This document shows, piece by piece, positions 26,318 to 60,617 of a DNA stretch of 64,000 bases. The translations under genes were made by a program, and so were the position numbers. The number at the start of each line of letters is the position of its first letter. Position 1 is the first letter of the stretch. The notes under the pieces were generated by a model. It saw only the letters and a list, made by a program, of their open reading frames with translations, was not told where the DNA came from and did not search any database. Source of the stretch: Massilia sp. CF038 (GTDB taxonomy: Bacteria > Pseudomonadota > Gammaproteobacteria > Burkholderiales > Burkholderiaceae_D); assembly GCF_900129765.1 (NCBI RefSeq), contig NZ_FQWU01000002.1, positions 1,240,001-1,304,000 on the forward strand, written 5' to 3'.

Positions 26318-26938
26318 AGGGGAGCCTTGCCGACTTCGGGCAAGTGGAATAGCCCCCCGCCTGCGCGAGGGCGATGTTTTGGCGGCGCCAAGATCAGTGT
26401 TACATCGCACTCGCGAAGGCGGGTGCCCATGCCACCTCATCGAATTCGGACAAGTGGAATAGCCCCCCGCCTGCGCGAGGGCGATGTGGTAGCGGCGCAC
26501 GGAGATAAGTGTTACATCGCACTCGCGAAGGCGGGTGCCCATGCCACCTCACCGAATTCGGACAAGTGGAATAGCCCCCCGCCTGCGCGAGGGCGATGTT
26601 TTGGCGGCGCCAAGATCAGTGTTACATCGCACTCGCGAAGGCGGGTGCCCATGCCACCTCACCGGATTCGGACAAGTGGAATAGCCCCCCGCCTGCGCGA
26701 GGGCGATGTGGTAGCGGCGCACGGAGATCAGTGTTACATCGCACTCGCGCAGGCGGGTGCCCATGCCACCTCATCGAATTCGGACAAGTGGAATAGGCCC
26801 CCGCCTGCGCGAGGGCGATGTTTTGGCGGCGCACGGAGATCAGTGTTACATCGCACTCGCGAAGGCGGGTGCCCATGCCGCCTCACCGGATTCGGACCAC
26901 TGGAATAGGCCCCCGCCTGCGCGAGGGCGATGTGGGGC
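26318..26938. repeat. tandem array of ~112 bp palindromic units
   Basis: Five units start at 26397, 26509, 26619, 26731 and 26843 (spacing 112, 110, 112, 112), each beginning GTGTTACATCGCACTCGCG and ending in GCCTGCGCGAGGGCGATG; a partial unit precedes them from 26318. Unit tails alternate between TTTTGGCGGCG and TGGTAGCGGCG. The left arms belong to the CAC class and the right arms to the GGG class, so arms within one unit do not match fully. The array fills the 696 bp between alaS and the phosphodiesterase gene; no gene is visible there. Confidence 0.88.
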
Positions 26939-26941
26939 GGC

Positions 26942-56955: not shown

Positions 56956-56996
56956 CAGGCCCGCAGCGTCGCCTTGGCGCGACAAATCGCTCAAGC

Positions 56997-57032
56997 AATC
57001 CCGCTCCGGCTCACGCTGCAGCGGGATTTTTT
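56997..57032 (+). terminator. terminator of glnS
   Basis: AATCCCGCT and AGCGGGATT pair around a loop and are followed by six Ts. Confidence 0.9.
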
Positions 57033-57060
57033 GATTCCGCGCAATTCTTTCTGTTTGAAA

Positions 57061-57081
57061 CCTATCAGTACCGATAGGTAC
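57061..57081. promoter_or_regulatory. overlapping inverted repeats upstream of the histidine kinase gene
   Basis: CCTATC..GATAGG and, overlapping it, GTACC-GATA-GGTAC form two interlocked palindromes 37 bases before the proposed start at 57118. A candidate operator; no known regulator is assigned. Confidence 0.35.
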
Positions 57082-57117
57082 TTTATTTGCCTCCCATGCG
57101 TTAACTTAGATCAAACC

Positions 57118-59004
57118 ATGCATCGCCATTTGCGGCTACCGAAAGGATTGCAACGCGCAATGCGTACCCTACAATCACCTTTGAATCTGTTTTCGACCAC
57201 GCGGCCGGTCATGTGGGTAGGTTTGCCGCTCTCGCTTGCCGTGGGCCTGGCCTTCTACTTCACCACCGCCAGTTCGATCGAGTCCGATTCGCGCCAGCGC
57301 TTCGCCGCCCACGCGCAAAATGCCAGCAACATCATCGTGGCGCGCATCAAGTCGTACACCGATGTCCTGCGCGGCACCGCCAGTATCTTTCAGACCAGTT
57401 ACCCGCTCACGCGGCGCCAGTTCCATGGCTATGTCAGCGGCCTGCAACTGGAAAAATATTTCCCGGCCATTGAAGCGATCAGCTATGCCGAGTACGTGAA
57501 GGACGCCGACCGCGATGCCTTCGAACGACGCATGAATCAGGAGCTGACGACCGACAATGACATGACGCAGCCGTTCAAGATTCGGCCGCCCGGCCGGCGC
57601 GCCGAGTACAGCGTGCTGACCTATATCGAGCCGCTCGACAATGGCAACAAGGCGGCCGGCTTCGACCTGCAAGCCAATCCGCTCCAGCATGCCAACCAGA
57701 TTGCGCTGCGCGATGGCGGCCAGCTGATTTCATCGGGCATGCCGATTGCCGCCATGGCCGGCCCGAACCGCACCGGACTGGGCATGCGCTTGCCCATCTA
57801 TCTGCCGCATGCACCCACCAATACCATGCAGGAGCGGCGCGACGCCTTTGTCGGCTCGGTCGGGATTGCCTTCTCGGTCGACAAGCTGGTGCTGGGCGTG
57901 ATCAACCAGATGCCGGTGCAGAATGTGCGCATGATGCTGGTCGATAACGCCGTCAGCATTGAAGGCAAGCGCGGCCGCGTGCTGTTCGACACGGCGCTGG
58001 AGGCACCGGCCGTGGAGCACTCCAGTCTGCTGCGCGGCGGGCGCTTTTCCACCACCCTGGCAATTGACTTCAACGGGCGCGCCTGGGATGCCGTGTTCAG
58101 CGTCGACGCGAGCGACCTGTACACCGGCTTTGAAGAATTCGTGCCCTGGCTGGCGTTGCTGGCCGGCTTTGTCAGCACCATGCTGCTGTACGCCCTGTTC
58201 CATGCCCTGACCTCCTCGCGCCGGCGCGCCATCAAGATGGCCAAGGGCATGACGCGCGAATTGCGCGAAAGCCAGGCCAAGCTGCAGCAGTCGCACCAGA
58301 ACCTGCGCCGCCTGGCGGCCCACGCCGACCAGATCAAGGAAGGCGAGCGCAAGCGAATAGCGCGCGAAATTCATGACGACCTGGGCCAGAACCTGCTGGC
58401 CTTGCGCATCGAAGCAGACATGCTGGCCACCCGCACGCGCGAGCGCCACCCCCGCCTGCATCTGCGCGCGCGCTCGACCCTGTCGCAAATCGACGCCACC
58501 ATCAAGAGCGTGCGCCAGATCATCAACGACTTGCGCCCGAACGTGCTCGACCTGGGCTTGTCGGCAGCGGTGGAATGGCAGATTGCCGAGTTCAAGCGGC
58601 GCACCGGCATTGCCTGCGAACTGATTGACGAACCCAAGGAAGTGCTGCTGGGCGACCATGCCGCCACTGCCTTCTTCCGCATCTTGCAAGAGTCACTGAG
58701 CAACATCGTGCGCCATGCGCATGCCACCAGCGTGCGCGTGGAGCTGCGCTCGAATGGCCGCCAGCTGACCATGACGGTGACGGACAACGGGATCGGCCTG
58801 GGCGCGCGCGAACGGGGCAAGGTTGGCTCGTTCGGGCTGGTGGGGATCGAGGAGCGTATCAGCATTCTCGGCGGCTCGTTTTCGATCAGCAGTACCGACG
58901 GGGAAGGCACAACAGTCTGCGTGTCCGTGCCCCTGCATGCCGAACCGCATCATGCGGTCACGCCCGGCCTGGGCTTGCATGACCGGCACGCCGCCACTGT
59001 CTGA
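57118..59004 (+). CDS. CHASE-domain NarL-type sensor histidine kinase
   Basis: 628-residue orphan sensor kinase. A membrane helix (VMWVGLPLSLAVGLAFYF) precedes a periplasmic CHASE domain (DVLRGTASIFQTSYPLTRRQFHGYVSGLQL, IEAISYAEYV); a second helix (PWLALLAGFVSTMLLYALF) is followed by a coiled coil and a HisKA_3 domain with His419 in REIHDDLGQNL, then an ATPase domain with GFGLVGIEERISILGG-type FGLVGIEERI. NarL-type kinases pair with LuxR-family regulators, but none is adjacent. The start is uncertain (57118 or 57160). Confidence 0.9.
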   Translation: MHRHLRLPKGLQRAMRTLQSPLNLFSTTRPVMWVGLPLSLAVGLAFYFTTASSIESDSRQRFAAHAQNASNIIVARIKSYTDVLRGTASIFQTSYPLTRRQFHGYVSGLQLEKYFPAIEAISYAEYVKDADRDAFERRMNQELTTDNDMTQPFKIRPPGRRAEYSVLTYIEPLDNGNKAAGFDLQANPLQHANQIALRDGGQLISSGMPIAAMAGPNRTGLGMRLPIYLPHAPTNTMQERRDAFVGSVGIAFSVDKLVLGVINQMPVQNVRMMLVDNAVSIEGKRGRVLFDTALEAPAVEHSSLLRGGRFSTTLAIDFNGRAWDAVFSVDASDLYTGFEEFVPWLALLAGFVSTMLLYALFHALTSSRRRAIKMAKGMTRELRESQAKLQQSHQNLRRLAAHADQIKEGERKRIAREIHDDLGQNLLALRIEADMLATRTRERHPRLHLRARSTLSQIDATIKSVRQIINDLRPNVLDLGLSAAVEWQIAEFKRRTGIACELIDEPKEVLLGDHAATAFFRILQESLSNIVRHAHATSVRVELRSNGRQLTMTVTDNGIGLGARERGKVGSFGLVGIEERISILGGSFSISSTDGEGTTVCVSVPLHAEPHHAVTPGLGLHDRHAATV

Positions 59005-59281: not shown

Positions 59282-60241
59282 ATGCTCAACAATTCCACCT
59301 TCCAAGCTATCGCCGCGCTCGACCTGGAGCCGATTAAAACCAAGCTCATGCACGTTGCGTCGGGCGAAGGCTGGAGCCAGGCACGGGCCGATGCGATCGA
59401 AACCGAATACCGCCGCTTTCTGTACCTGATGCACGCGTTTCCGCAGGAGGAAACCGCGCCAACTGTTGACGTGGACACGTTCTGGCACTATCACATTCTG
59501 GACACCATGAAATACGCCACCGATTGCGACCAGGTGTTCGGCTACTTCCTGCACCATTACCCCTACCTGGGCGTGCACGGCGAGAGCGATGCCGGCGCCG
59601 AACAGCGCGGTGGCGAACGCATGCGCGAATTGTATGAAGCGACCTTCGGCGAAGCGTATATTCGCGCTGAATCCTATGGCAGCGCCGCAGCGTATTGCAT
59701 GATCCGTCCCGACCAGCAAGCCGACGCGGCGCAGGCAGCGTACTGCATGATCCGGCCTGACCAGCCAGCCGCCGCGGCGCAGGGCGCCAGTGCCGCGTAT
59801 TGCATGATTCGCCCTGACGATGCGGCTGGCCAGAGCGCAAATGCGGCGTACTGCATGATTCGTCCTGACAGTGCGGCGGCCAAGGGCGCGAGCGCGGCCT
59901 ATTGCATGATTCGCCCGGACAGTGTGGCTGCCAACGCTGCGGCGGCGGCATACTGCATGATTCGCCCAAGCACGGGCGCAGCCGCGAAGGCGCAGACAGC
60001 CTATTGCATGATCCGGCCTGGGAAGAAAGCAGCCAAGGGCGCTGAAGTGGCGTACTGCATGCTGCGACCGGGAAGCCAGAGCGCCGCGGACGCGCAAGCC
60101 GCGTATTGCATGATCAGGCAGGAAGACGCCGCAGCCGCCGGCGCCAGCGACGACGCTGCGCCGCGCGCCATGCTGGTCAGCAGCGCCGGCGTGCAGTGCG
60201 CCAATCAGGGTGGGCACACGGCAATGGCCGTGGCGGCATGA
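59282..60241 (+). CDS. protein with GRDP-like domain and nine YCMIRP repeats
   Basis: 319-residue cytoplasmic protein; AGAGG precedes the ATG. Residues 1-130 resemble the glycine-rich-domain-containing-protein-like (GRDP, PF07173) fold, with VDVDTFWHYHILDTMKYATDCDQVFGYFLHHYPY-type His/Tyr-rich core. Residues 136-280 hold nine copies of AAYCMIRP at a nearly exact 17-residue period (Cys at 139, 155, 174, 191, 208, 225, 242, 259, 276); copies 7-9 drift (AYCMLRP, AYCMIRQ). Linkers are Ala-rich and variable. No export signal. No modifying enzyme is adjacent. Function unknown; metal binding, peptide processing or a polymer-like role are options. Confidence 0.87.
   Translation: MLNNSTFQAIAALDLEPIKTKLMHVASGEGWSQARADAIETEYRRFLYLMHAFPQEETAPTVDVDTFWHYHILDTMKYATDCDQVFGYFLHHYPYLGVHGESDAGAEQRGGERMRELYEATFGEAYIRAESYGSAAAYCMIRPDQQADAAQAAYCMIRPDQPAAAAQGASAAYCMIRPDDAAGQSANAAYCMIRPDSAAAKGASAAYCMIRPDSVAANAAAAAYCMIRPSTGAAAKAQTAYCMIRPGKKAAKGAEVAYCMLRPGSQSAADAQAAYCMIRQEDAAAAGASDDAAPRAMLVSSAGVQCANQGGHTAMAVAA
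59687..60121 (+). repeat. nine-unit 51-bp coding repeat (YCMIRP array)
   Basis: The nine units encode AAYCMIRP plus a variable linker; seven of the eight intervals are 51 bases or differ by one codon (48, 57, 51 x6). Codons for the conserved residues vary synonymously (TAT/TAC, ATC/ATT, CGT/CGG/CGC, CCC/CCT/CCG), so the protein motif is kept while the DNA has drifted. Confidence 0.9.
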
Positions 60242-60347: not shown

Positions 60348-60617
60348 TTAGCCGGCGGCGTTGAATGGCGTGATCGTCACGCCCATCAAGGATTTCAATT
60401 CCCGGATACTGAATTCGCTGACCTCGTGCATGCGCAGCAGAATCGTCGCGCCAATCGGCAAGGTGCGATGGCGAATCTTGCTGATCACGGGCGGCGCCAC
60501 TTCCAGCGCGCGCGACAGCGCGGCATCATTCTTCAGATTCAAGCGTTCCATGATCGCATCGAGGACCTTGTTGGGGTCATAAGTCGGTTCGGTAGGCACG
60601 TGGCGGATCGTCGTCAT
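60348..60617 (-). CDS. small helix-turn-helix protein
   Basis: 89-residue protein with a central Cro/CI-type helix-turn-helix, LSRALEVAPPVISKIRHRTLPIG, between helices KVLDAIMERLNLKNDAA and TILLRMHEVSEFSIRELKSLMG. No other domain. It is convergent with the repeat-protein gene and 106 bases from it, and could regulate a nearby gene. Confidence 0.8.
   Translation of the reverse strand: MTTIRHVPTEPTYDPNKVLDAIMERLNLKNDAALSRALEVAPPVISKIRHRTLPIGATILLRMHEVSEFSIRELKSLMGVTITPFNAAG

Follow-up and report, generated by a model that had tools for sequence, protein, structure and literature searches.

Plant proteins of the GRDP type combine RNA-binding parts with glycine-rich parts. In the open-access literature, outside of which most subscription papers lie, no report was found that links the GRDP-like domain to bacterial peptides or gives it a function in bacteria. 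Several families of bacterial peptide precursors are modified on Cys by MNIO (DUF692) enzymes, according to excerpts of PMC12452194; the same excerpts present those TIGR04222 proteins that have Cys-rich ends as proposed substrates of MNIO enzymes, proof of their modification being awaited. In plants, burpitides are made by BURP-domain copper peptide cyclases that exist in fused autocatalytic and in split forms, mostly with several cores (excerpts of PMC12186524).

We analyzed a stretch of 64,000 nts from Massilia sp. CF038, referred to as the window. An ORF at positions 59282-60241 of the + strand encodes a protein of 319 aa in which a GRDP-like N-terminal domain, named WHxH after its motif, is followed by nine Cys-containing units. 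Computation established the family of this gene, its domain, its repeats, the selection on the cores, their turnover and the association of the domain with Cys peptides both in cis and in trans. On balance, we favor the reading that the gene encodes a fused multi-core RiPP-like peptide precursor, with a putative action of the domain on the cores in cis.

The array gene and its N-terminal domain

The features of the locus are the following (window coordinates, strand, feature):

56974..59004, +, upstream neighbor, CHASE sensor histidine kinase (CHASE, HisKA_3 and HATPase_c; Pfam)
59282..59665, +, N-terminal GRDP-like (WHxH) helical domain, residues 1-128 (PF07173, alignments, AF2)
59690..59710, +, core unit 1, AYCMIRP (C139)
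59738..59758, +, core unit 2, AYCMIRP (C155)
59795..59815, +, core unit 3, AYCMIRP (C174)
59846..59866, +, core unit 4, AYCMIRP (C191)
59897..59917, +, core unit 5, AYCMIRP (C208)
59948..59968, +, core unit 6, AYCMIRP (C225)
59999..60019, +, core unit 7, AYCMIRP (C242)
60050..60070, +, core unit 8, AYCMLRP (C259)
60101..60121, +, core unit 9, AYCMIRQ (C276)
60122..60241, +, C-terminal tail and stop, without an RPxL ending
60348..60617, -, small convergent gene, 89 aa (Pfam and NCBIfam searches)

The nine units share the consensus A-Y-C-M-[I/L]-R, and their Cys residues are located at 139, 155, 174, 191, 208, 225, 242, 259 and 276, exactly as listed in an earlier note made from the letters of this DNA. 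That note had described nine AAYCMIRP units at a strict period of 17 residues. The number of units was right but the exact sequence is found in six of the nine only, unit 7 being TAYCMIRP, unit 8 VAYCMLRP and unit 9 AAYCMIRQ, and the strict period is refuted by Cys-to-Cys spacings of 16 and 19 residues ahead of six spacings of 17. Two further Cys residues lie outside the repeats, C82 within the domain and C306. AYCM occurs nine times in the tail and at most twice in any of 20,000 shuffles of it; this count was used instead of a 5-mer test, in which the observed value of 8 was equalled by one of 2,000 shuffles, the Ala run being the presumed cause. The Tyr codons of the cores (59690-60121) alternate strictly between TAT and TAC (permutation P 0.004); no significant trend of this kind was detected when 62 arrays were pooled (z 1.51). 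The window also contains an unrelated tandem repeat at 26330-26941, with a 112-base unit present in 5.5 copies at 91% matches.

The assignment of the N-terminal part to a GRDP-like domain, also made in the earlier note, was upheld: the window protein scores 24.2 bits against PF07173, for which the Pfam gathering cut-off is 22.7, the match being limited to residues 42-81 and to positions 100-143 of the 143 of the profile, i.e. its last third. Some relatives miss the cut-off (21.2 bits for the protein of locus L203). No other domain exceeds its Pfam cut-off in the window protein. In NCBIfam, no family was matched by the window protein, by nine members of a set of ten that comprised domain, transporter and fused proteins (the exception, from L091, belongs to TIGR04222), or by nine small peptides and one domain protein from the split loci described below. 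Two AF2 models of the domain are all-helical with pLDDT values of 86 and 88; searching their fold against the PDB gave no match with E < 0.001, and phmmer against PDB sequences gave zero matches up to E 10. As there is neither a solved homologue nor a fold match, catalysis by the domain is treated as putative.

The window's genome carries a single copy of the WHxH domain, and the domain is present in all 17 genomes of the genus. The N-terminal 128 residues of 42 relatives are 58-83% identical to those of the window protein. Alignments of the close subfamily revealed residues that are invariant or nearly so (D65, W68, H69, H71, D74, T75, Y78, D81, C82, H92 and P94), C82 being invariant across 43 aligned rows. 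The conserved His, Asp and Cys residues suggest a metal site or an active site; alternatively, the domain could be a carrier, recognition or immunity (protective) domain.

Synteny, selection and core turnover in Oxalobacteraceae

The family was collected by a scan with one genome per species, from which the best 80 of 129 relatives, corresponding to 79 loci, were retained. Within this set, 77 loci come from Massilia, Janthinobacterium, Duganella, Pseudoduganella, Rugamonas or Telluria; the other two belong to an "Oxalobacteraceae bacterium" and to a MAG labelled "Burkholderiaceae bacterium". Janthinobacterium and the Telluria group, to which the remaining named genera belong, are part of the Oxalobacteraceae. 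Gene order is fixed, with glnS followed by the CHASE histidine kinase gene, the array gene and the small convergent gene. Counting the window, the kinase gene adjoins the array gene in 79 of 80 loci and the convergent gene is kept in 72; the 89-aa product of the latter matches no Pfam family, and its best NCBIfam match, a HigA-type antitoxin, reaches 15.9 bits for a cut-off of 47.7. In 62 of 80 loci, a gene for an MFS transporter follows the array gene at a distance of about 3.4 kb, without adjoining it; none was found in the window, whose end is 3.8 kb past the array gene. Its position gives only a hint that bears on export of the cores. The neighbor clusters scanned, which lie within about 8 kb of the array genes of Oxalobacteraceae, yielded no recognisable modifying enzyme and no recognisable protease. 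At one locus (L191:5592-6062), a copy of the domain gene located behind glnS-like and kinase-like genes has WRYH in place of WHxH and a tail with one AWS and no array; this copy may be decaying.

Units of the family begin with Ala, seldom with V, S, P or F, followed by an aromatic residue or His and then by Cys or Ser. At least three aromatic-[C/S] units are present in 78 of 79 arrays (78 loci and the window, L002 being omitted), with a median of nine and a range of 2-18. Besides AYCMIRP of the window, cores include AYCMYRP, AWCGRAP, AWCMGTT, AFCGIVR, AYSGVP, AYSAAPG, AHSGVVG and AWSASPR. An RPxL C-terminal ending is found in 51 of 79 relatives, comprising all 48 of the Ser type and 3 of the 31 of the Cys type. 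The earlier note had placed the function in the repeats, a view that would be refuted by homologues in which the domain is kept but the repeats are lost or scrambled and Cys is not conserved. The outcome of this check is mixed: in homologues with the domain the repeat sequence is wholly changed, yet the aromatic-[C/S] pair after Ala is retained.

Selection was measured by comparing units within each array that has at least four of them, which gave 77 arrays; L002 was left out because of a frame break inside its array, and L036 and L079 because they do not reach four units. In the window array, pS is 0.734 and pN 0.046 for the core, compared to 0.617 and 0.496 for the linker. Over all unit pairs of the 77 arrays, the values are 0.552 and 0.114 for the core and 0.587 and 0.442 for the linker; replacements are thus about 4 times rarer in the core than in the linker, and synonymous differences are alike. 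By position, pN/pS in these arrays is 0.08 at Ala (-1), 0.05 at the aromatic residue (0), 0.07 at Cys/Ser (+1), 0.19-0.56 at +2 to +5 and 0.56-0.94 at ten linker positions. The core is under purifying selection within arrays and the linkers drift. With similar synonymous divergence and few core replacements, the copies are not just recent duplicates and their protein sequence is maintained, which bears out for the window the earlier statement that the core is kept at the protein level while its codons differ.

Conservation inside an array is combined with turnover between species. Thirty-six kinds of five-residue cores were found across 74 syntenic genes, uniform inside a gene and differing between species, and 47 of these genes have Ser in place of Cys. 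On the GlnS tree of these genes, no fewer than 40 changes of the five-residue core were counted, along with 16 of the aromatic residue and at least 4 between Cys and Ser. Tandem paralogues of a single genome bear unlike cores (AWSARAP and AYSGAAT in L199, AWCQLG and AFSLAAAP in L197, and likewise in L196), so that paralogue sorting may explain part of the changes. Core distance was correlated with the distance of the N-domain of the same gene once GlnS and kinase distances were controlled (partial r 0.47; p 0.0033, the lowest value attainable with 300 permutations); this correlation is suggestive and confounded, because domain and core reside in one gene and tandem paralogues exist.

Cys tails in cis and small Cys peptides in trans

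Outside the family, the domain is scattered. It was detected in 56 of 399 genomes of the order (E 1e-3, mostly distant members), in 25 of 369 of the class sample (1e-14), in 6 of 398 of the phylum sample (1e-15) and in 11 of 240 and 2 of 78 genomes of two other classes (1e-18). Many members end in short Cys tails such as NPCKSTDCR, NPCAATRCR and CRTPGACK. One member from another class carries six PAMCGGMLK-type units joined to its domain (L181), and three AWCSL and five YCA units are found in plasmid members from Variovorax and Cupriavidus. All 19 complete distant relatives (L090-L110) have Cys in their last 40 residues and 18 of them have at least 7 Gly there; L094 runs off its contig, and L103, missed by the search pattern, nevertheless ends in Gly/Cys runs. 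The relative in L091 is a TIGR04222 membrane protein with the WHxH motif and a Cys/Gly tail. WHxH proteins with Cys-rich tails were also observed on six viral contigs (L214, L215, L217, L218, L219 and L221), three of which exceed 300 kb. Overall, 184 of 201 distinct domain strings have Cys or A-aromatic-Ser in the tail, 10 have neither and 7 are truncated; 136 of the 184 come from the window's family, the 248-aa frames of L091 and L093 among the other 48 were judged spurious, and Cys in the tail is a loose criterion where tails are long.

The ten proteins without such a tail were considered separately. Six of them adjoin a small Cys peptide (L133, L141, L142, L203, L226 and L227) and a seventh, L140, has a weak candidate; a neighboring small Cys peptide was looked for and not found in L182/L208, L183/L209 and L225. 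Most homologues that lack repeats end in a Cys tail or lie next to a Cys peptide. Of 19 tail-less domain genes, 13 had a small Cys ORF in their vicinity, compared to 32 of 177 control genes taken from these loci (one-sided p 1.0e-5); the numbers were 8 of 19 and 13 of 177 when at least two Cys were required (p 1.6e-4). Both counts used a small-ORF criterion that was drawn up after the cases had been seen and whose size and position limits missed L141 and L227.

Where the domain is tail-less, the peptide gene is often upstream of the domain gene. Three sets of split peptides have a common core and a varying N-terminus. A KAFCGKLCMP peptide is present in L203 and L227, from two genera of one family; a C-terminal HCQGxGxW is shared by L142 (Halomonas), L226 (Pseudomonas) and L133, which comes from a genome of the window's order; and L261-L265, L267 and L268 have Cys-cluster peptides whose genes lie near the beginning of the domain gene or overlap it, with CxGxC in all seven and CxGxCx[SG]GxC in five. 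The peptide of L272 has a Gly/Cys run, and the domain gene of this locus itself reads in two frames. In the cyanobacterium Stanieria (L141), the domain gene is followed by a 43-aa ORF with AFCFL and GFCFL and then by a methyltransferase gene. The anatomy of a RiPP, a ribosomal precursor in which a conserved part can be told apart from a core, is present both in the fused arrays and in the split peptide genes, the latter having cores that are conserved and N-termini that diverge. In a set of 17 regions made of the closer matches in the class sample (16 of 25 genomes), a Cys tail in cis was found in 5 and an adjacent Cys peptide in 8; of the rest, L259 and L270 have neither (the ORF of L270 is doubtful), the peptide frame of L266 is not open and L269 has no intact domain gene.

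The other genes of these loci vary. Three loci, each from a different lineage (L132:1-6966, L136:217-7183 and L139:6941-13134), encode a short domain protein with a Cys tail, a SAM methyltransferase, a TauD dioxygenase and a UvrA-like ABC ATPase of 1221 to 1397 aa; the UvrA DNA-binding domain is above cut-off in L136 and L139, and the ATPase of L132, the frame of which runs off its locus, is alike by sequence. Partners in L203 are a methyltransferase and an MFS transporter. L142 and L226 encode homologous membrane proteins of about 440 aa (28% identity) that remain below every Pfam cut-off (MatE at 20.2 bits for a cut-off of 24.9 in L142, none in L226), and L142 also carries an AHL synthase and LuxR. 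Genes for TonB-dependent receptors were found in L261, L265, L267 and L272, for TonB in L264, L265, L267 and L268 and for ABC transporters in L261 and L262. As an observation apart, the pairing of peptide and WHxH domain in L261-L265, L267, L268 and L272, in several cases with TonB-type or ABC genes, forms a metallophore-like layout. Methanobactin clusters also have TonB-type uptake. The term TonB-dependent appears at least 12 times in PMC3621798.

The WHxH domain and the Cys/Ser core peptide are fused in some lineages and encoded side by side in others, a pattern that is classically taken as evidence of joint function. As no modifying enzyme was recognised among the peptide, domain and transport genes of several split loci, the domain is the leading candidate for the modifier. 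Combined, the species-specific cores and the split operons that pair the domain with small Cys peptides support a multi-core peptide substrate, one of the two resemblances proposed in the earlier note.

Interpretation of the array and comparison with known systems

The second resemblance was to a Cys/Met metal-binding polymer, which can be extended to an intact, unprocessed array with metal-binding or redox activity. Cys residues are regularly placed, members of the wider WHxH superfamily end in Cys/Gly-rich tails and several split operons have TonB-receptor neighbors. The lack of Met conservation weakens this proposal, and so does the replacement of Cys by Ser, which is seen in 47 of the 74 syntenic genes and took four or more C/S changes; moreover, the residues that follow Cys are near-identical within a gene, a constraint beyond what simple ligation would call for. 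We consider such a polymer unlikely for the array, and the Cys-rich tails and TonB-receptor neighbors leave room for metal binding in relatives. The Ala-rich linkers, the variation from 2 to 18 copies and the low-complexity composition would be expected of passive repeat expansion, giving a disordered, aromatic-rich sticker-and-spacer tail that yields no peptide product; purifying selection on cores whose synonymous sites have diverged, and the existence of separate peptides in split operons, make this improbable. We give similarly little credence to a pheromone sensed by the adjacent CHASE histidine kinase. This kinase is an almost constant neighbor, its CHASE domain diverges fast (mean distance 0.54 versus 0.31 for the kinase part), cores are species-specific and core distance correlates with CHASE distance with GlnS and kinase controlled (partial r 0.25, p 0.0033). 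However, the correlation drops to 0.04 (p 0.12) when the N-domain is controlled as well, and coevolution with the sensor was rejected since the CHASE signal depends on that of the N-domain; paralogues of one genome bear unlike cores, and no response regulator was recognised beside the array gene.

The cores might also be substrates of an MNIO enzyme encoded elsewhere in the genome. MNIO genes are present in 17 of 17 genomes of the genus and in 115 of 195 of the family, more precisely in 56 of the 62 family genomes with a strong domain match and in 59 of the 133 others, and the relative in L091 is a WHxH-bearing member of TIGR04222, the family in which proteins with Cys-rich ends are proposed MNIO substrates (PMC12452194, in excerpt). 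Against this, 6 of the 62 genomes have no MNIO match, the co-occurrence follows phylogeny, and MNIO is absent among the 25 families listed of the 76 matched by 49 neighbors of distant WHxH genes. The window's genome has four MNIO genes, none of them beside the array gene. The nearest, about 76 kb away, resides in its own operon (L278:4466-6927), where an MNIO-DUF2063 fused gene accompanies a DUF2282 protein gene and a DoxX gene, in agreement with the bufferin layout of MNIO, DUF2282, DUF2063 and DoxX given in the excerpts of PMC12452194. An MNIO as the modifying enzyme was rejected on the distance and on the six genomes, and this reading is very unlikely. A second MNIO gene of the genome adjoins a gene for an 88-aa Cys protein without Pfam family.

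We return to the fused multi-core precursor. In the mechanism we propose, the N-terminal helical WHxH domain would act in cis on the nine A-Y-C-M-I-R-P cores, the Ala-rich linkers between them being expendable. Through its Asp, His and Cys residues, and perhaps a metal site, the domain would modify or escort each core at Cys/Ser; proteases would cut the linkers to release several identical small peptides, which would then be exported and might serve as metal-binding or signalling peptides. Exchange of Cys and Ser together with a variable aromatic residue would point to chemistry on the Cys/Ser side chain or on the backbone rather than to plain thiolate metal binding. The window gene is probably a peptide system of the fused multi-core type, based on a domain that is not known to have such a role, and it looks like an unrecognised route to small, probably modified, cysteine peptides in a soil-type bacterium. 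A broader and more tentative proposal, which we regard as possible without favoring it, is that the WHxH/GRDP domain is a modifying enzyme founding a RiPP-like class in Pseudomonadota and a cyanobacterium: it would act on aromatic-Cys/Ser cores and on Cys cores of other kinds, in trans in split forms and in cis in fused single- and multi-core forms, with a conserved, fast-changing multi-core array in Oxalobacteraceae and exported, re-imported metallophores in the TonB-linked forms.

If the proposed reading is right, a domain that is mostly known from plants, as the "glycine-rich domain" family, would acquire a function in the making of bacterial peptides, and a look beside WHxH domains could bring to light many small Cys peptide genes that lack annotation. 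With 36 core types on a common chassis, the arrays of Oxalobacteraceae are a natural set of variants for the study of self-modification on a single purified protein. They also provide a lead on TIGR04222 proteins, whose modification, according to excerpts of PMC12452194, awaits proof.

Compared with known systems, the window gene shares Cys-containing cores with methanobactins, bufferins and TIGR04222 proteins (PMC12452194, in excerpt), and the WHxH motif is shared with TIGR04222 through L091. It differs from MNIO-associated precursors in that no MNIO gene is adjacent, Ser may replace Cys and the domain is fused to a tandem array. The window protein reaches the gathering score of plant GRDP-like/DUF1399 proteins (PF07173; AtGRDP2) over 40 residues only, and has tandem peptide repeats instead of the plant architecture. 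Microviridins, multi-core bacterial RiPP precursors (PMC5934393, in excerpt), likewise have several cores per precursor; here, a folded WHxH domain takes the place of a short leader, and no known RiPP-modifying enzyme was recognised nearby. The closest working analogue is provided by the burpitides, which also have fused and split forms and multiple cores. The BURP family is absent from the Pfam matches of the window protein up to E 1, and the system described here differs in being bacterial, in its unrelated domain, in its aromatic-Cys/Ser core and in a chemistry that is so far inferred.
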